A DNA stretch of 64,000 bases from Brachionus plicatilis. Taxonomy: Eukaryota; Rotifera; Eurotatoria; Ploima; Brachionidae. The translations under genes were made by a program, and so were the position numbers. The DNA lies in NCBI GenBank assembly GCA_010279815.1, contig QEOQ01000486.1, positions 898,935 through 962,934 on the forward strand, written 5' to 3'. Each line of letters begins with the position of its first letter. The first letter of the stretch is position 1. Under the pieces are notes generated by a model. The model saw nothing but the letters and a program-made list of their open reading frames with translations, searched no databases and was not told the DNA's origin. Of the stretch, positions 50,000 through 64,000 are shown piece after piece.

Positions 50000-50760
50000 T
50001 TTGTGTTGAAAAAAAATTTCCTTTAAGAATTATTTTCAAACACAAATTTTTTGTGTTAAATGTTTTTTTTTTAAATATAATTTTTTGTGCTGATAAGAAA
50101 TCGAATTGTGTTGAATGTTTTTTTCATTGTGCTAATCAGAAATTGATTGTGCTGAAATAATATTTTCTATGACTCCTAAACCCACTTCATCAGTAATTAA
50201 ATTAGGAAAATCAATGGCTAGTTGGGTAAATTTCAAGAAAATATACCAACGTACTTACTTATACAAAGATTGTTATAAAACTGATTATTTAACAAAAAAT
50301 TGTTCGTGTAAATACTACTTGAAACTTGGATATTGTTCACATTTATTAGCTTTACAAGAATTGTTTAAAAAGAAAGATCAGTTTGTTAACAAGCCAAAAA
50401 AAGGTAGAGCTAAAAATTTTGAAAAATGGTTCGTGAGAGAATAAAAAAATGATTAAAAACATACTTTATATTTATCAATAAGCTTTGTGATTTTAGATTT
50501 GAAAAAATTCAGCATTTAACTTTTGTGTTGAAAAGTTTTTTTCCCTTAATTTAATCTAAATTATTTTTTTTGTGTTCTACGATTTTTTAGGGAAAAAATT
50601 TTTCACTTTTTTAAAAATTTGTGCTGAGAAGATAAAATTTTGTGTTAAAAAGTTTTTTTCTTTTTTTGAAAAATTTGTGATGAGAAGATTTAATTTTGTG
50701 ACGGTCAGTTTAAATTTGTGTTGAAAAGTTCTTTTATTGTGTTGAAATAATAATCCCAAT
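50000..50760. repeat. Irregular array of TGTGYTGAAAAG motifs around the second SWIM frame
   Basis: At least a dozen copies of tgtgttgaaaag-like words, each usually followed by a T run, occur in the same orientation in two clusters (about 50000-50165 and 50520-50750). They flank the frame at 50169-50444. Spacing is mostly 20-25 bp. Confidence 0.6.
50169..50444 (+). pseudogene. SWIM zinc-finger fragment, copy 2
   Basis: 91 codons from an ATG. The SWIM finger CSCKYYLKLGYCSHLLAL is followed by FKKKDQFVNKPKKGRAKNFE. It is longer at the N-terminus than copy 1 and without stops. No DDE catalytic core is present. It is probably a MULE transposase C-terminus, although expression as a small DNA-binding protein cannot be excluded. 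Confidence 0.6.
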
Positions 50761-52548: not shown

Positions 52549-55500
52549 ATGTTTTTTCTATTTTTGCTCTTGTTCCATTTGGTGCTTTCTCAAATAGGTA
52601 CTTTTTTGATATAGATTTAAAAATAAATTTTTTAAACATTTCTTCTCAAGATAAGCCTGTTATTACCGATCTGCAGCAGAAAAATGAAAAGACGGTTCTC
52701 GTTAAATGGATTTATAGAAAATCAGATCTACAAGAAAACCTCAGGCTCAGAGTTCAGTTTAGCAAAGACAATTTTCACTATGACATAAACGAATGGCCTG
52801 GTAAATATTTAAAAAAAAATTAATATTAATTTGATTAATTTTTACTTTTAATATAAAGTTAACTTCGAAAAAGTAAATTCAACATCTGGTGAAGTTATAG
52901 AGTCGACAACTGTCAAATCGAATTTTGAATGTATATTGCAGTGTATAAAGACTTTAGAGTGCAATCACCTAATTTATAAATTTGATGTCACAAATAATTG
53001 TCACCTAAAAAAAAAATCTGCTAACGAATCAAGTTTAAAATGGGAAAATGAGGAAAATTTTGATATAACAGGTAATATTTTATGACACAAATTTTATTCG
53101 ATATTATTTCTTAAGACAATAAAAATTTAGCTTTAAAAGTTCTAATTCCATAAATATTCAAAATTTCGGGAGATTTTTGATCAATAAGTTTTTTTAATTT
53201 CTTTCTTTCAGTGTTTTCTAACCTTGTAATAATTGAACATTGGAATTTAAGTTATGATTTTAGAGATTTCTGTCTCATTGTGTTTATTCGTTTGTAATGA
53301 TTAAGTTCTATAAGAACATCATTTTTTAATGCGTATTTTTGCTAAACAATTATATGCTCAAATTAAAAAAAAAGTATATTATGAGTGTTTTTTAAATGTA
53401 ATTTCATGTTAAATCCTTAAAATTTTAGTGGAATTTATGTAAAACCAAAAAGTGGTCATTTTTTCGTATTTTTTGTTAAAATAAAATTTATCACAATAAT
53501 TTAAAAAAATAATTTCATCATCTTGATTAAAAATGTTGGGTATTTACACTCTCATATTTTAAGCGTATGGGTGCTATTACATTTGAAGGACTCGTAAACT
53601 TGTAATTTTAAATTTTGAAATAAAAATTAAGTTTGTTTACAGCCTGTTAAAAAGAATCAATATTCTCAGCACACATTAATAGAAACACATAGACTGTCCT
53701 TAAATCTATGTTTTATTTTGATCTACAATTAATTATTTTTTTTTGATTTTTTTTATTTTTTGTTTTTTGTTTCTTAATCACCTGAGAAGTATTTTTTGAA
53801 TAAAAAATTAATATAAAAGATGAAGTCTCATCCTAATTCTATAAAAAAATGTGGTAATATCAATGTAATAATAATAAATCGTTTAGGAAATGCAATTACG
53901 TCTAAAATAAATTGGAATTATTAAAGATTTTGAATTTTGGTGATAAAATAACTATTTTTAAAATTGAATGCAAAAATGTAAAAATTGTGTAAAAAAAGGT
54001 ATTTTAATTTTTTTTTATTCATATTTATTTATTTATAGCATTGAATTAACTTCCTTTAAGTAGAAGCAAAAATAAAAAAAATTAATAAAAAATTATCACT
54101 TTAAAGTAAAATTACAATAATGCAAAAATGTAAGTTCGAAAATAGAAAGTATAAAATATTAAAACTTGGACCAAAATTTCATGTATTTCTTTTGAATTTA
54201 ATTAGTTTTTTTTAAAAGAGTTTTATAATTTTTCAATTTTAAATTGTTCAGACGTAACCAGATTGAATCAAATATACCATCATTATAAATCAGATTACTC
54301 TTAAGATTTTCTCTTAGTTGGTTTATGTTCACAGTAATATTTAAGGTTATGGATATTTTAAAGTACCTGGAAATAAGTAACAAATCACAGGAAAAAGATT
54401 TATTTGAAGGAAATCATAGATTAGATAATCATTGATTTTAAAAATTGTAATGAGGGATGATTTCATTTAATTGTATCAATAAAAGTTGGTTTTGAAAATA
54501 AAAAAAGTTCATCAAAGTTGAATAATTTCAGTGTTTTTAGGATCCGTGATAAGAGACAGTAAGGTTTTGAACTAAACATTTGTCTAATTAATTTGTTTTT
54601 AGATTTTATTTATTTAATCTTATGTGATCGAATTGAGGAAGTGAATTAATTGAGTGGAAGCCTCAAGACCAAAGATTAATTTAGATAAACAATATGTTTT
54701 GTAAAAAAATAATTTGTATTTTGGTGAAAAGGTTGGACTAGTTTTAAGAAGAAGATAAGAAATTTCAAAATAGCTGCTCTTAACTTTTATAAAATTAATA
54801 GTTTCCTGTTTGATATTAATATTGATCAAATAAAATTTTAGATTTATTTCAACAAAAAATACGAAAGAATTACCACTTTTTAGTCCTTTTAGGTTTTACG
54901 TAAATTCTAATTATTCTATTTTAATTAACGAAATTTAGCATAAAATAACATAAAAATCTTTCATAGCACTAATGTATGAAAAATAGTAAAAAAAAAGAGA
55001 ACTAGTGGTCTAAGCAAAAATGAAATAGAAAAAAAATCATGTTTGTAATCGAGTCTTAGGTACTGGGCTTAAGACTATTTATACATAAGAAACGCAGGGT
55101 AATTTGCAAGTATTCACGGTATCTATTATTTTAATTTTCACTACGGTAAATACTCATTACAAATTACAAATTAAAACTAAAAAATCAATGAAAAAAAGTT
55201 TTTAAAATTTAGAGCTTTTATTATCATAAGTCTTTATTGGTGATAAAATAAGGTTAGTGATAAAAAATAAAGTTTTTTTAAATTTTACTTTTTAGACTAA
55301 TTTTTGAAGCATTTACACTAGTGTTCCGGATTTAGTAATTTACCATAATTTACGTAAAAAATATTAAATTTACGTAAATTTATCAGATTTTACGTAAATT
55401 AATGCAAAAAAAAAATGTCCAAAAATTGAAATGAAATTAAACGCCAAAAGTGCAATTTCATTTCAATGTCATTTCATTCGAAGTGCCAAATTATTTCAAT

Positions 55501-58500
55501 TTTTGGACATTTTTTTTTTACATTAATTTACGTAAAATCTGATAAATTTACGTTTTTTACGTAAATTATTGTAAATTACTAAATCCGGAACACTATTGTA
55601 TATCAATAATGGATTTTTCAAATTTCCTGTTTATAAAATCTTCAAATAAAAATTTTCTAAATTTAGATAGCAACAGAGAAATTGCGATAAAAAATTTTCC
55701 ATATAATGATTTATACAGATTTCGAGTAATGGTTTATGATGAGATTGAGAAAAAATGGACCCAATTTTCTGATTTGTCGCATCAACATTTGGACACTAGA
55801 ATAAGTAAATAGCCTTTTTTGAATCAATTTTGTAGCTAAATAAATTTTTATAGATTTATTCATTGCCGTCGAAAGAGTCGGAAATAATAGTCTAAAAATT
55901 AGCTGGAAACAATTTGGTTTATTTAAAAATTACCCTATTAGTCGATTTAATATTCAAACTTCAATTAACGAAGAGCCTTTTAAAGATAATTTTGATTTCA
56001 AATTATTGTCCTCAGGTATGAACAAAATTAAACTAAACTGAAATTTATTGTTTCATAGCGATGAATTTAAAATTAAATTTAAAATTAGATGCAAAACTTG
56101 CTTGTTGAAATGCTATTTTCATTTTTTATTTTAGATTGAAAATTTTAATTTCTTAGCAAAATTCATCTGTCTAATAATCTTTTTAATTTTTATTTGTCAT
56201 CAATCCAAAAACATGAAACCAAAAAAAAAAAATTAAGTGAAAAAAAATCCCAAATAAAATACAAAAAGAAAAAATGGATACAATTAATTAAAAAAAAACA
56301 AAAAGTTTAAAGTTCAAAAGTTTAGAAATTTTTACAATTTAATATTTGAAATGACTGCTTTTGGCGTTATAACAAACCAAAACTCTTTTTGTCATAGATT
56401 CAATAAATTTTTTCACATACTCAGTCATAATATTTAATAAATAAAGGTAACTTTGGTGTTAAACATCTTGGCATCCATGTATGACAATAAGTTCTTGATC
56501 GGGTTGAGATCTGGTGAACCTCAATGTTCTGTTCTTTGAACCAATAGCTTACTGAGTGAGCGGAATATGACAAAGCCTCATCTTTTTGAAAAATCCCAGG
56601 GTCATTAGGCTCAAATAGGTATACAACAGATGCTAAAGGATTATTTTCTAAGGTTTTGATGTAGAAAAAATGATTTTATTTTTTTAATTTTTCACTCAAT
56701 TTTTTGTAAAATTCAATAAATAAACGATTTTAGGTAATCAATATAATTAATTTCTAAATTTTTCCAAAATACTGTATAAAAACTATTTTTTATCACTCTT
56801 ATCTGTTCTTCTTCTTTTATCTTAATTAATGTAAGAAAAAAATGGGTTCACCAAGTAATAAAAAAAAAGTAAAATTATTTATTAGTGAAAAACAATTCAA
56901 TAAATAACTTTTAAATTTTTCATTTAACTAAAAAATCTTTATGAAGCTAGAATTTCAAATCCAAAATTTTAATTTTAAATTTTTAATCAAACTTGAAAAA
57001 TTCTTAAAAAATATGATCAATTTGAGAAATAAAAAATTAAATGATTAATCTTGTATTTATTCAACCTCTGATAATTGTTGATATTTTTAATTTAAGCAGG
57101 ATTATAGTGTTTTATTTTCGATTTAAGACAATCGTTATCTTCAGTATCAATTATTAAAGATTCAAGATTTTTCCGAAAAATTGTTGTTAAATTTTTTAAA
57201 GAGATGAAAAAATTTGCATAAATAAATCTCTATGAAGCATAAATAAGGGTGTTGTGAAATTCAAGTGCAAATTTAACAAAAATTCTTCCTTTTTGGTGAA
57301 TTAAAATCAAAGGTAATAAAATATATTTTAAAAAATACTGCAACAAAGTGCAACATACTTTGTTGCACCTTTTTGGCTTAAAATAATTTTTCTCATGTTT
57401 AATATGACAAAAAATAAAATATCAATAAGATTTAAATTGATTATTGGTTTATTTTACTGAAAAAAAATACAATAATGATTATAATTTAGGCCAAAATGGT
57501 GTAACAAAGTATGTTCCACTTTGTTGCAGTATTTTTTTAAGTATATTTTATTAACTTTGATTTTAATTCATCAAAGAAGGAAGATTTTTTGTTCAATTGG
57601 TATTGAATTTCACAATACCGTAGATAAGTATAATTATTATTTTTATCTAAATTTAGAGACAAATTATCAGAATTTTTTTGAATTGCCGTTGCCACCCGCA
57701 ATAGGTACTTGCAAGTCTGAACAAGAATGTTTTACCAAATGCTCGAAAGCCCATGACTGCATTAAATATGCATTTAATATCACTCACGGAAATTGTCATC
57801 TTATCAATAGTTTTGATCCTATTAATGGAATTAAAGTTCCCACTGTAGTCTCAAGAACAATAATATGTAAATTTTTAAAATCAATGATAAAAATTTCTCT
57901 CATATCTTTTATCTAGCTTCTTCGAAACAGTTTATTCTTGACGATTTGAAGCTTTTTTCAAATTATAAAATCAAAATTAGTTACAAAACTCCACTCGGAA
58001 TTCAAAGATCATCAAATTTGATATCCTATGTTTTAAGTAAGCTTTGAAGCTGAAAAACTCAATTTCAATTTATTATTTTTAGCCAAGTTAAAGCCTTTTT
58101 TGAGAATTCAAGTGGAAAACAATGATTTTACAGTTTCTCTTAATTGGACCATTATCGAACCAGTAAAGCTCAGAACTTATCTAATCCATTCCTCAATCAA
58201 TGAATCAAGCTATTTTGATCAATATTTTGAAAGCAACTTGCACGACTTTGATGATCCCAATCAATTAATGCACCATCTGAACTTAAATGATTGTTTTTAT
58301 AAATGTGCCTTGAACTCAAGCTGCTTGGCTTTCACATGGAACAGATTTGAGAACAAATGCTTCTTAAAATCAAACAAAAATAGAACTCGAGTTTGTGATC
58401 CAAATTACTTTTGTTCTTCAATTATGGGTAAAAATTAAAAATTTTTTAAAATTTAATTAAATATTTTATTTTTTAATGCGAAACTATAAGCTTAACTAGG

Positions 58501-61500
58501 CTTATTAATTTTGTAGCTGACATATTCAATCTTATATTGCCAAACATATTTGAGATTCGTCGCTCTTCATCAGACTTGTGCCCAAGTCACTAAGTCAAAC
58601 TCAAGTCACAGACTTAACTTAAGATGTTTTTTTTAAATGAAGTCATTTGACCTGAATTGATTTAAAATACTTTCTTTAATATATTATGTTTAAATTTAAA
58701 AAATCCTTAGTAATCAGCTTTATTTATCAAGATTTTTTAGCTGATTCGAATTAGCATTAAAATTCCTGTCTTTTCCAGCATCTTCAGGACCTGTTGAACG
58801 TCTTTTTTCATCAAAAGACCACATAGAACAAGACTAACAGTTACTAACAGTAAAAAATCTTGAGGCAACAACACTTTTATGCAGCAAATTGTACAGGTCA
58901 GATGACTTAACTTTAAAAAAAAATATCTTAAGTCATTGACTTCGCTAAGAAGTGACTTAAAAATGACTTAGTCATAATGTCAGATAGTAAAATTCAAAAT
59001 ATCCCTTTTTTATAAAATTAAATCATTTGATAGTTATTCCAATTATCTTTTTTTAAAAATTGAAATATCTATAATGCAATTTTTTATATTTTGTCCAAAT
59101 TTTTGGAACAAATTTTTAAGAGAATTAACAGATTTTCTTGAATTTTTTATCAAATAAATTTCAATATTTTTTAATTGTTTTATTCGATAGATTATTTTAT
59201 TTTTAAAAAAATAAAATAAAGAATAAATCAATTAATATAAATAATTTATCTCGTACATTTAAGATTTTTTTTATTTACGTATTATAAAATCCGTTTACAA
59301 AAAATATTTTTTTGTTTAAAAAATTCGGCGTTAGATGCCCGGATTCAGGTTTTAGGGATGACCGAGAAAAATCTATTGCAAAATATTTTTTAGCAATAAG
59401 GGGAACTTCAAATATATTTTTTTTTGGAGGACACCATCATAAGAATTCTATTTATTAAATTAAACATGAAAAATAAAATAAAAATAATACCAAAAACTTG
59501 TGTTTAGGACTATAAGAGTAAAGCCCAAATCCAACCTTTTTTTTTCTGTTTTCTTTTAGAGTAAATTACATAGTTTCTAAGATATAACAAATTTGATTAA
59601 TTGGAAAATATTCTGAATATTCTGTCGTATCCAAAAATAAAGCATAAATTTAGCTTTTACTTAAATTGTCTTTTTCCAATAAAAAATATTAAAAAAAAAT
59701 TGTAGATTTAATTTTGAAATAGACAATGTAAGCTTTTTCTATTTTTCTGCACTTAAATCTAAGAGGAGATTTTGTGAGATTAAAGGTAAAATTTTTAAAA
59801 TTTTATTAAAAAATTAATTGAATTCGATGCAGTCTAGAATTCTATAATTATCAGATGAAATGAAAATTAACATTTATTTTTTTATTAATCAAAAAATTTA
59901 AATCCAATTACCGCATCGAATTAATTTTTTTTTTAAACTTTTATATTTTTTACCTTTAATCTCATAAAAAATGCTCTTAGAGTTAGTTTATTGTATTAAA
60001 AGTTTGTTTTTTACTTTTAAAATAATTAAAATTTAAATCTAAATTCTAATTAAAATTTTTTTAATTTCTGCTTTTTCTTTTTAATTAAATATATGTTCCA
60101 TCTATTATTTCCAATTTTTTTTTAATGATTTTATTTTAAATCGGCTTCTAAATTCATCATAATCTTTTTTTAAAATATTATTTTTATTTTAGAATACAAC
60201 TCGCTTATACGAATTAAAAACCATTTTGTCAATACCAAATATTGTTACATGATAAGTGTTTTAAGTTATTTTGGCTTGGCAGGTGAAAAATCAAATAAAG
60301 TTTGCTTTAAATGTATTTTATTTTTTGGACTTAATTAAAAAATTTATTAATTTTGTTTCAAAGGGAATGTAACTGTGAGTTTAAACTCAGATTCAAGGTT
60401 TAAAGAAGGGTCCCGTGCAACATTGCGTTGCAATATAACTGGAATCACAGCAGAGCAGATGGATCATCTAAAATGGATCAAAAACTCTAAAGTTTTATCT
60501 GATGCAAAATTATCACATAATTCTTTTCATTTTGACAAACTTAGTCTGGAACTCTATTCCCTAAATTATTCAAAAGACAATGGCATCTACTCGTGTGAGA
60601 TAACACTGACCAATGGTCAGATTCTGGTCAGCAATAAACTTGACATAAAAGTTGATTTTGGACCACAAATCAAGCTTACCAGTGTTCCAAACCAGCTTAC
60701 TATAATGCAAGGTGATCGAGTCAATATAAGCTGCTACGCAATCGGTTATCCTATACCGGAAATTAAATTTATAAAAAATAATAAGATAATAAAGAATTTT
60801 ATTGAAATTTATGACTTCAAAAATTTTCGCAAGACTATTTATTTAAACATTGAAAAAAGCTTATTTAATTTGCACAATGGAACTTACTCGTGTTATCTGG
60901 ATAAGTTATTAAAAAAAAATTTTGATCTATTTATCCGGTTTGGACCTTTTTTTGCAAATAATTCAAGTGAAATTCATGTAAATGAATTTGATAATGCATC
61001 TATTGAATGTTCTATGAGTAAACATCCCAGGCCTAAATTGATATGGAGCGAAAAAATTAAAAAAAAGGATCAATTAAAATATCAACTAAAATATTCTAAT
61101 GAAACATTCGGAACATCGGTGCTAAAGTTCGAAAATGTTAGCAGAAATGATATGGGTGAATACTCTTGCCTTGATGAAGAATATTCAAATATTAGCAAAA
61201 ATTTTATGCTCTACGTACATTGTAAGTACTTAGGCTTTTTATCTAAGAATTATTGAAATTAAATTTTCCAAAAATAAAGACCAAAGCGAATTTTTTTCTT
61301 AAATATTTAAAAGTTAAATTTTAATTTTCATAAAAAATATTCATTATTGATTAAAAATAATATTGAACAATTTTTTTTGCATGTTCATAAGATTTTAAAA
61401 GGTTTTATTCTAGATTTATAGCTTTTTATTGATCGAGTTAATATTTGGAGCATTTTCAAAAATTTTCACAAATTTAACAATACCAATGATTTGAATGCAT

Positions 61501-64000
61501 ATGTGAAAAAAATAGCATCTTTTTAAGTAAAATAAAAAAATTTAGGGTAAATTTCTCAGAATTACGATCTCATGATTTTTGGAAGAGATTTTTTTTAATA
61601 AAAAATTCGAAACGATCATTTAAAATTTTAAAACTTAATTAATCTAATGGTTTTGATAATTTTTCAGAAATAAATACTAAGCATTATTAGATATGTTATG
61701 TAAAATAATGTTTCATTATCAAATTAACATCAAAATGATTGATCTCTTATTTTTATTTAATAAAAACAATCAATAATTTAAATAATTCAGGTTAAGTTAA
61801 TTCAAAAATTCAAATTCAAAACTTTTATGTTCATTCATTTAAACAACAAAAATTTTATTTTTACACTTAAACAGATTACAAATTTTAAAATAGTAAATTA
61901 TTGTCTTTAGAAGTTAGTTTTCATTAAAATCAATTAAAATATTCAAACCTTTTAAAGTTAAATAAAAAGGGACACTTTAAAATTTTAAATATGAAAATAA
62001 ACTTGATGTGATATGTCAAGTAATTGCTTTGGAAAAAATTTATTTTTTCTCTAAAAACTTCAATTTTCCATAATACTTTATAATTAAGTAAAAAAAATAA
62101 AATTTTTGATTGAATTTTTAGAATAAAAAATTATCCAAAGCTGATTCAATCAATTATTCTTTTGAAGATGTTGAATTTTAAAACTTTTTGTTTTGATTTC
62201 TCATTAAAACTTTGATTTTTAAAAAAGGTAAAAAAATTAAAGTAATAAGAAAACTTGAAAATTGTGAGCATGAACACGAACATGAAATTTACAAAAATTT
62301 TAAAAAATCAACATTTTTGAAGTCAATTAAAAAAAGTTTTTTTAAAAAATTATTAATTTAAATAGAGCATTTTTTTGTACTTTAGATCACTGAATAATTT
62401 GTTTATTTTTTGTCAAAAAGTTCTCTACCTTTGCATTTTTTCCACTTCATCTTCTAAACAAATATCGCAGATCAAGTCATTATCTACTTTCACGAGAACC
62501 AAATTTAGTGTTTATTTCATTGCAAAAATTTTTCATAAATTTTAAATCACAAAAAATTAGCTCACGAAATTGATGAGCTGAGTTCACGAAATAAGAAAAA
62601 TTAGTCAACTAAACGTATTTACATGAGCTTAGCTCACATATCAAAGAAGGTCCAAAATTAATCCCAAAAATAAAACCTCAAAATTCTGCAATAATAAAAA
62701 TTAATTTAAATTATTGTAATATTGCGTTAACTCGCGTAAAACTACCATTGACCAATGAGTCAATTTTTTAAAAAATTCATAATAATTAAAAAAAATCCAA
62801 ATTTTTAGACTCAAACAGTTTTTTCTTGTTAAGAGTAAAAAAAACTAAGAATTTTTAGGGACATAAAAAACTTGCTTAAATTTAAATTTCCAAAGTTAAT
62901 TGATTTCTTTCAAGTTCCATCAGCTTTAAAAGATGAAAACCAGACTGAAGTATATGAATTGACTCAAAATTCATCTGCTGAGCTTGATTGTGTTTCTGTT
63001 GGTTATCCGATTGCCAATATTGATTGGAAATTCGACTCTTTCAATGTAGATTTAAATCCAAGTAAAGTTTTTAATTCATCATGGAATCAGACATCTATTC
63101 TTGTTTTGGAAAATTTGAGCAAAAACGACCAAGGAAATTATTCATGTGGTTTTGTGAGCGATGATGTTGAGCACAAAAAATATTTTCGAATAATTTTTCA
63201 AAGTTTGCATTATTATTTTTTAAATTAAAACTAAATTGAAAAAATTATTCAAGGCAAACCAAAAAGTCCAATTTTAGTCTCAGCAGAAGAAATGGAAGGA
63301 GACTTGATAAAACTAATATGGTACATTGAAGACATCGGCAATTGCGCTCTTGTCAGCGCGGTACTGGAATGGGCGGATAGTTTTGAAACTTCATCTTTCA
63401 ACAGTCTGAGCTGTAAGATTTTATTTAATCAATACTTTTAGGAAACTTTTCAAATTTCCGAACTTATTTTGCCAAATAATTGCTATTGGCAACAAGGACT
63501 TTTCGGCAAATTCTATTAAAAATAATATAAGTTTACAGAAAGGTGTTTTTAATTTTCTTTAAGTGAACGGATGTAAACAAATAACTCTATTTAAAATCTA
63601 ATATCGACTTTTTTTTATTAAAAACACTTTGGTTTATCTAAGTTAGTTTCTTTAAATAGCAAATGAGTTTGGATAAGAGCATTTTTTTACTAAAGTGAGA
63701 ATTTTTTTTATTATAATTATAATTTTGAGCGTTTTGTTTAAATTAATTTCAAAGTTAATCCATTAGAATTAATGAATTTTTAGAAAATAATTTTCTTATC
63801 AATGTAAAATGCTTATTTATTTAATTGTTTATCTTGAGGGCATTTTATTAGAAAATTTTTTCAAAAATTTTAGCCAACAAAAAATTTTTAGAATTAAATC
63901 CTTGATTGTCTGTCATTTATTTATTATTTTTTTTTACAATTATTTAATCAAATTTAGCTAAAAAACCGATACTCAAAAAAAGTAATTTTTAAAAATTTTA
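52549..64000 (+). CDS. Large secreted or surface protein: FN3 units with inserted PAN-like modules, then Ig domains (3' end outside window)
   Basis: Thirteen exons were joined: 52549-52597, 52651-52800, 52859-53071, 55667-55804, 55854-56015, 57624-57866, 57917-58036, 58083-58427, 60193-60282, 60364-61221, 62915-63202, 63254-63412, 63958-63981. Every junction is phase 1. Exon 1 is a signal peptide (MFFLFLLLFHLVLSQ). Exons 2/3/4, 5/6/7 and 8/9 form three units: a first FN3-like half (e.g. SLKISWKQFG), a PAN/apple-like module with C-x3-C-x5-C-x11/12-C, and a second FN3-like half (e.g. NDLYRFRVMVYDE). Exon 10 holds three Ig domains (GIYSCEITL, GTYSCYLDK, GEYSCLDEE), exon 11 a fourth (GNYSCGFVS), and exon 12 the start of another FN3 half. 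It probably acts in adhesion or recognition. The last 24-nt exon is the weakest call. No transmembrane segment lies within the window. Confidence 0.8.
55319..55595. mobile_element. Tc1/mariner-type MITE in intron 3
   Basis: Inverted repeats of ~110 bp begin GTGTTCCGGATTTAGTAA at 55321 and end with its complement at 55593; TA flanks both sides. Arms contain tacgtaaat and taaatttacgt words and a ttgaaatgaaatt centre. No coding content. Confidence 0.85.
56340..56680 (-). pseudogene. Tc1-like transposase C-terminal remnant in intron 5
   Basis: Minus strand reads YIKTLENNPLA, FQKDEALSYSAHSVSYWFKE, then in another frame SPDLNPIKNLLSYMDAKMF, and in a further frame EYVKKFIESMTKRVLVCYNAK. FQxD...A and SPDLNPIxN are signature phrases of Tc1-type transposases. 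At least two frameshifts make it inactive. Confidence 0.85.
57252..57623. repeat. Long inverted repeat ending at the acceptor of exon 6
   Basis: About 130 bp at 57252-57388 is repeated inverted at 57488-57621 (gcaacaaagtgcaacatact / agtatgttccactttgttgc and a long flank). The right arm runs to within two bases of the splice acceptor AG of the PAN exon starting at 57624. It is probably a MITE or a local inverted duplication. Confidence 0.75.
58565..58985. mobile_element. hAT-derived element in intron 8
   Basis: Left (58605-58655) and right (58895-58945) segments are inverted copies rich in aagtca/gacttaa, both with acttaagat, a T run and gtcatytgacctg. Between them, 58751-58893 (+) reads LALKFLSFPASSGPVERLFS, then a stop, then LLTVKNLEATTLL. 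This is the C-terminal dimerisation region of hAT transposases. The stop and truncation show it is dead. Confidence 0.8.
61648..62052. repeat. Dispersed repeat, copy 2 (first copy at 7265-7672), in intron 10
   Basis: Same orientation and same 342-bp core length (61683-62024) as the copy at 7304-7645. The palindromes at its ends are more decayed (attagatatgttatgtaaaa; cttgatgtgatatgtcaag). Confidence 0.75.

Follow-up and report, generated by a model that had tools for sequence, protein, structure and literature searches.

Receptor protein tyrosine phosphatases (RPTPs) of the LAR type (IIa) carry N-terminal Ig domains followed by a series of FN3 domains, and a second protein tyrosine phosphatase (PTP) domain is common but not universal in RPTPs. 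PAN domains usually lie beside other domains, and extracellular animal proteins have mostly been built by end-to-end domain addition. An FN3 domain that carries an insert is described for the insulin receptor, where the insert of FnIII-2 is located in the CC' loop according to PMC10573852, includes an alternatively spliced exon according to PMC2577065, and is disordered and bears the alpha/beta cleavage site according to both. The PAN core is given as four to six cysteines in PMC9249922, which also reports that mutation of the core cysteines in the PAN domain of HGF weakens the interaction with c-MET. Here we describe a gene of the rotifer Brachionus plicatilis located in a window of 64,000 nucleotides (contig QEOQ01000486.1, positions 898935-962934, within a genome of 102.9 Mb). 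Its product is probably an RPTP that begins with a signal peptide and three FN3 domains, each of them interrupted behind strand C by a PAN module (in the C-C' loop, most likely). Four Ig domains, a PAN-free FN3 domain, one transmembrane segment, a catalytic PTP domain and possibly a decayed second PTP domain would follow.

The gene model comprises 12 coding exons within the window (52549-63412, plus strand, AG/GT borders throughout) and continues beyond it. The joined frame of 1518 codons is stop-free, and the C-terminal end of the model has been left incomplete. An earlier reading of the same DNA, the original prediction, had described three FN3-like folds interrupted by PAN modules and ending in Ig domains. 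Its coordinates were borne out; instead of the thirteen exons that it named, 12 were found in the window, and exon 13 starts outside, at 69044 (window-extended coordinates; L009 5978 onward). Four Ig domains do follow the FN3-PAN units, but the chain does not end there and continues through a further FN3 domain and a transmembrane segment to a PTP domain, which places the gene among the RPTPs. With the domain order signal peptide, FN3(PAN) x3, Ig x4, FN3, transmembrane segment and PTP, the interrupted folds are therefore the extracellular part of an RPTP. The gene model, the domains, their presence in two species, the FN3 packing of unit 2 and the match of units 1 and 2 to FN3 profiles are results of computation.

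The PAN Modules

The predicted cysteine module, C-x3-C-x5-C-x11/12-C, is present in the translation of all three units (by eye), with x12 in unit 1 and x11 in units 2 and 3. All three modules exceed the curated PAN_1 cut-off of 21.4 bits in a genome-wide scan (31.2, 24.5, and 30.9 bits), and Pfam likewise reports PAN_1 in three stretches (1.9e-16) of the N-terminal 778 residues. PAN#1 is encoded by exon 3 (52859..53071; 31.3 bits when scored alone), PAN#2 by exon 6 (57657..57866; 25.6 bits alone), and PAN#3 shares exon 8 (58083..58427) with the first half of FN3#3. A search of the genome at the protein level with exon 8 returned exon 8 itself and three weak matches (E 0.005, 0.02, and 0.08). 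More PAN clusters exist elsewhere in the genome, on contigs C1, C4, C13, C45, C53, and C104, with no listed FN3 match nearby (by eye). Judged likewise by eye, no listed PAN match outside this gene adjoins a listed FN3 match, a comparison that split FN3 domains would escape.

The FN3 Halves

The segments that flank the PAN modules were compared with an own-genome profile built from 29 FN3 domains (30 loci minus one with a stop), and each unit was rescored after removal of stretches of at least 40 residues. Exon 2 (52651..52800) encodes the first half of FN3#1, strands A-B-C, as assigned by the deletion scan and shuffles. Exon 4 (55667..55804) encodes its second half, strands E-F-G, according to the deletion scan and profile-profile comparison. 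The two halves of FN3#2 lie in exon 5 (55854..56015) and exon 7 (57917..58036), both by the deletion scan, Pfam fn3 and profile-profile comparison. The best deletion lifted the score of unit 1 from 9.8 to 24.1 bits and that of unit 2 from 7.0 to 23.2, whereas unit 3 went only from -0.2 to 6.6. Removal of exactly the PAN exon gave 14.3 bits in unit 1 (profile positions 4-78 of 91) and 19.3 bits in unit 2 (8-83 of 91). Alone, the halves match different parts of the profile, 4-30 and 57-78 in unit 1 and 8-40 and 57-85 in unit 2. When the flanks were shuffled and put through a reduced deletion scan (100 shuffles per unit), the real score was reached by 0/100 in unit 1 (24.1 vs. a control maximum of 16.1) and 0/100 in unit 2 (21.7 vs. 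9.1).

Profile-profile comparison of two-species alignments gave similar results. With deletions, the match was at best 91% for unit 1 and 92% for unit 2, against 39% and 23% for the intact units. With exact deletion it was 74% and 89%, neither of which was equalled by any of 60 shuffled controls per unit (one control of unit 2 reached 66%). In B. calyciflorus the deletion scan raised unit 2 from 12.8 to 31.6 bits, and the best deletion of unit 3 gave 9.5 bits. Pfam fn3 saw B. calyciflorus unit 2 as two stretches when the PAN was present (30.8 bits, the best covering residues 4-53) and as one stretch, 4-88, when it was removed (36 bits, cut-off 25). On the intact window protein, Pfam gave fn3 14.5 bits over half a domain, below the cut-off. 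FN3 halves around a PAN are thus upheld by the profile searches for units 1 and 2 and not for unit 3, whose deletion score of 4.2 was reached by 23 of 100 flank shuffles.

Two other arrangements of these segments were considered. The PAN and FN3-like pieces could lie side by side, with the flanks as independent linkers or small domains instead of FN3 halves. In keeping with such an arrangement, no FN3 profile matches unit 3 significantly, and Pfam fn3 detects neither unit 1 nor unit 3. However, in units 1 and 2 the two halves correspond to complementary segments of the profile, give a near full-length match once the PAN is removed, and are not imitated in 100 shuffles, while the AlphaFold2 (AF2) model of unit 2 packs both halves into one sandwich; we consider the side-by-side arrangement unlikely. 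Alternatively, each stretch between two PANs, that is a second half plus the next first half, could be a circularly permuted sandwich that alternates with PANs without nesting. Such a stretch is about one domain long, and its profile match is 33% for the first and 10.5% for the second. Yet these stretches align over just 32 and 29 columns, which is one half each, the series opens with a first half and closes with a second half, and the AF2 model of unit 2 by itself is a canonical FN3, so that a permuted sandwich is very improbable.

Predicted Structures

The AF2 models were made for units 2 and 3 of the B. calyciflorus relative, not for the window's own sequence. The flanking segments of unit 2 pack into one FN3 sandwich. 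Unit 3 shows like packing, but at a mean predicted local distance difference test (pLDDT) score of 51. One-sandwich packing had been set beforehand as the point on which nesting could fail; it was found in unit 2 and, at that low confidence, in unit 3. Among 50 structure matches to unit 2, all were FN3 proteins, monobodies, adnectins or entries with an FN3 chain, save four pectate lyases, including the top row, which were matched over their first 85-87 residues. In Foldseek, insulin and IGF receptors occupied ranks one to nine for the unit 2 model. The root-mean-square deviation of these matches is high (14-30 A over the whole alignment) and their TM-scores are low (0.39-0.42); they therefore show FN3 likeness, not a like insert.

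Exon 8 holds both the first half of FN3#3, an assignment made by the low-confidence AF2 model, and PAN#3, and exon 9 (60193..60312) holds the second half. Because the profiles give no support in unit 3, we infer its FN3 fold from the low-confidence structure prediction and from its position in the series. As for the loop, the deletion scans gave equal best scores for C-C' and C'-E placement of the PAN, and the number of aligned residues in the structure matches (the aligned positions themselves are not displayed) favours the C-C' loop.

The Ig, Membrane, and Phosphatase Parts

Exon 10 (60364..61221) encodes three Ig domains (Ig_3 in three stretches, 1.9e-25, also within residues 1-778) and exon 11 (62915..63202) a fourth; the B. 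calyciflorus protein P0005 shows Ig_3 in four stretches. Exon 12 (63254..63412) encodes the first half of FN3#4, which is PAN-free and was recognized visually and from a weak match to the profile; the second half follows in exon 13, and then the transmembrane segment and the PTP domain. The profile-profile match of FN3#4 is 23%, a score equalled by 0 of 60 shuffles. A hydrophobic stretch within residues 999-1028, between the ectodomain and the PTP domain, is a putative single transmembrane segment (by eye). The C-terminal part matches Pfam Y_phosphatase at 3.8e-64 (217 bits) and carries the catalytic motifs WPD at 1343 and HCSAGIGRTG at 1374, so that the PTP domain looks catalytically intact from its sequence. 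The top-scoring PDB sequences are RPTP alpha and epsilon. In a D1 tree of 25 rows the gene lies on a long branch and is not firmly placed; the nearest group consists of mollusc RPTPs (83/70, unstarred). The C-terminal region may be a decayed second PTP domain.

Several results weigh against the receptor as described here. Besides the shuffles that reach its score and its low mean pLDDT, unit 3 has a profile-profile match of at most 12.9% with deletions and of 0.6% with exact deletion, the latter not above its shuffled controls. Pfam fn3 has no match to window units 1 and 3 or to FN3#4 alone, and window unit 2 with the PAN removed scores 22.2 bits, under the cut-off. B. calyciflorus unit 1 scores 4.8 bits intact and 10.9 after exact PAN removal, and reaches 25.1 only by a deletion that extends past the PAN. 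PAN#2 of B. calyciflorus (20.4 bits) is slightly under the PAN_1 cut-off, and the PAN lobe of the unit 2 model has block pLDDT values of 31-70. Because the best deletions and the PAN exon do not coincide, the borders of the domains are fixed only to within about 10-20 residues. The Foldseek matches to insulin receptors superpose poorly, as stated above. In the phosphatase part, the phosphotyrosine loop reads KSRY, with KNRY in 3/5 paralogues, and the C-terminal region of P0005 compared with PDB sequences gave no D2 or other PTP relative, the one match being unrelated (E 1.7).

Occurrence and Conservation in Brachionus

P0005 of B. calyciflorus (1800 amino acids), a likely orthologue judging by its sequence, has the same modules in the same order, and the alignment of units 1-3 has only two single-residue gaps within FN3 and PAN sequence. 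The exon joining and the alternation of modules that had been proposed thereby receive some support from a related genome, in which one protein model joins the modules identically. Exon 1 (52549..52597), with the start codon and a signal-peptide-like sequence (hydrophobic N-terminus by eye), has 9/16 residues identical in P0005. The corresponding identities for the first FN3 half, the PAN and the second FN3 half are 32/50, 26/71, and 23/46 in unit 1; 34/54, 25/70, and 24/40 in unit 2; and 47/54, 40/61, and 36/40 in unit 3. In the remainder they are 143/286 for Ig1-3, 52/96 for Ig4, 53/101 for FN3#4, and 203/250 for PTP. PAN#1 and PAN#2 together (51/141) are less conserved than the surrounding FN3 halves (113/190; Fisher p 3.6e-5), and PAN#3 is less conserved than FN3#3 (83/94; p 0.001). 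On this comparison of sequences the inserts diverge faster than their host FN3 domains, and unit 3 is the best conserved of the three.

In the annotation of B. plicatilis HYR1 the gene is divided among P0001, P0002, and P0003, and each of these three models lies on a contig of 111,918 bases. P0002 is identical to the window at 204 of 228 aligned positions, and 17 of the remainder are gaps at a garbled exon; this near identity marks the window as B. plicatilis or a very close relative. The source names are hypothetical or Ig-like protein for P0001, hypothetical or apple-domain protein for P0002, RPTP epsilon for P0003, and unnamed product or protein-tyrosine-phosphatase for P0005; none of these four annotations names a PAN-FN3-PTP architecture. 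Among the 120 PTP relatives listed, of 870 found, PAN_1 was seen by eye in one, P0005. An RPTP ectodomain type has thus been concealed by split gene models in public rotifer annotation. Exon 9 has two usable donors (60283-60312); P0005 uses the longer form and the HYR1 model P0001 the shorter, and the end of the exon was moved from 60282 after comparison with P0005. The longer form may add the G strand of FN3#3 plus a cysteine.

Exon Phases and Origin

All 12 introns that follow exons 1-12 are in phase 1, and the PAN exons 3 and 6 are symmetric (phase 1-1). These two exons can be skipped in frame, and the insulin receptor insert has an alternatively spliced exon (PMC2577065), as would suit often-skipped cassettes, with mature receptors mainly of plain FN3 domains and the PAN forms as minor isoforms. 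We hold this to be improbable: P0005 contains all three PANs, PAN#3 could not be left out without FN3#3a, with which it shares an exon, and skipping may delete the C' strand. The C' strand of FN3#1 may come from the 3' end of exon 3, and that of FN3#2 probably comes from the 3' end of exon 6, to judge from a strand at 118-124 in the AF2 model of the B. calyciflorus unit.

Shuffled extracellular modules are of class 1-1 according to PMC8001218. For the nested arrangement, a phase 1-1 PAN exon probably entered a phase-1 intron within an FN3 domain, after which the unit was duplicated. In FN3#4 a phase-1 intron follows strand C. The genome PAN scan lists no PAN match in this intron, and B. calyciflorus is likewise without a PAN there; by its sequence FN3#4 looks like the pre-insertion state. 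Because the introns that flank the PANs do not all have counterparts in FN3#4, exon shuffling followed by triplication is something that we infer.

Several repeats and open reading frames (ORFs) lie in and around the gene. A fold-back repeat resembling a miniature inverted-repeat transposable element, at 55311-55603, ends 63 bases 5' of exon 4; its relatives amount to at least 159 matching pieces, both strands counted (40 of 358 candidate places scored). A second fold-back repeat, at 57248-57619, ends 37 bases 5' of the PAN#2 exon and is found in at least 39 other places at 85-89% identity, mostly over the whole length (40 of 1116 candidate places scored). An ORF in intron 5 (56421-56675, minus strand) appears by eye to be a piece of a decayed Tc1/mariner-type transposase. 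Upstream of the gene, an ORF at 50136-50444 carries C-x-C-x(n)-C-x-H, which on inspection resembles the SWIM zinc finger of Mutator-like element transposases, and ORFs downstream (L010 8246-9138) appear tetraspanin-like by eye.

Comparison with Known Receptors

By analogy with its family, an RPTP whose ectodomain is long and of the adhesion type is most likely a sensor of contact or matrix signals. In other systems PAN domains serve to bind partners. In this receptor the PAN lobes would project laterally from the rod of FN3 domains and contact a ligand on cells or in the matrix, and binding would alter receptor spacing or clustering and thereby affect how well the phosphatase reaches its substrates. 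The PAN lobes would then be the ligand-binding face, the FN3-Ig rod the carrier and unit 3 a conserved core site, a natural scaffold made of an FN3 rod and the binding lobe that it bears.

The original prediction knew of no described family with this order. No PAN-bearing RPTP and no PAN inside an FN3 was found in the titles and abstract openings listed from the open-access literature, although the RPTP class is known and the insulin-receptor FN3 insert, as far as PMC2577065 and PMC10573852 describe it, is a precedent. Within the literature searched, then, FN3/Ig RPTPs and the FN3 insert of insulin receptors are known, and a PAN nested thrice in the FN3 domains of an RPTP was nowhere found described. 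What seems new is a shuffled module that apparently sits within another; the arrangement is repeated three times in a row and occurs in two species, and the loop after FN3 strand C becomes testable as a general insertion site.

Like the RPTPs of the LAR, PTP69D, RPTP alpha/epsilon, and CD45 types, the receptor has an FN3 and Ig ectodomain, one transmembrane segment and a catalytic PTP domain with HCSAGIGRTG. It differs in that its N-terminal FN3 domains hold nested PANs, and the order FN3(PAN)x3-Ig4-FN3 takes the place of the LAR-type (IIa) order, which is absent. With PAN/apple proteins it shares the PAN_1 profile and the four core cysteines, whereas here the PAN appears within an FN3. With insulin receptor FnIII-2 it shares an FN3 that carries an insert; here the insert is a cysteine-rich PAN, occurs three times and belongs to a phosphatase, and the likeness to the CC' insert is at most one of working alike. 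The chances seem to us about even that the Brachionus composite fold arose by exon shuffling into an FN3-internal phase-1 intron followed by triplication, that the PAN lobe from the C-C' loop is the sensing end of the RPTP, and that the whole is an independent counterpart of the insulin receptor FN3 insert. If this is true, the PAN-in-FN3 composite fold is a phosphatase-side parallel to the insulin receptor insert.
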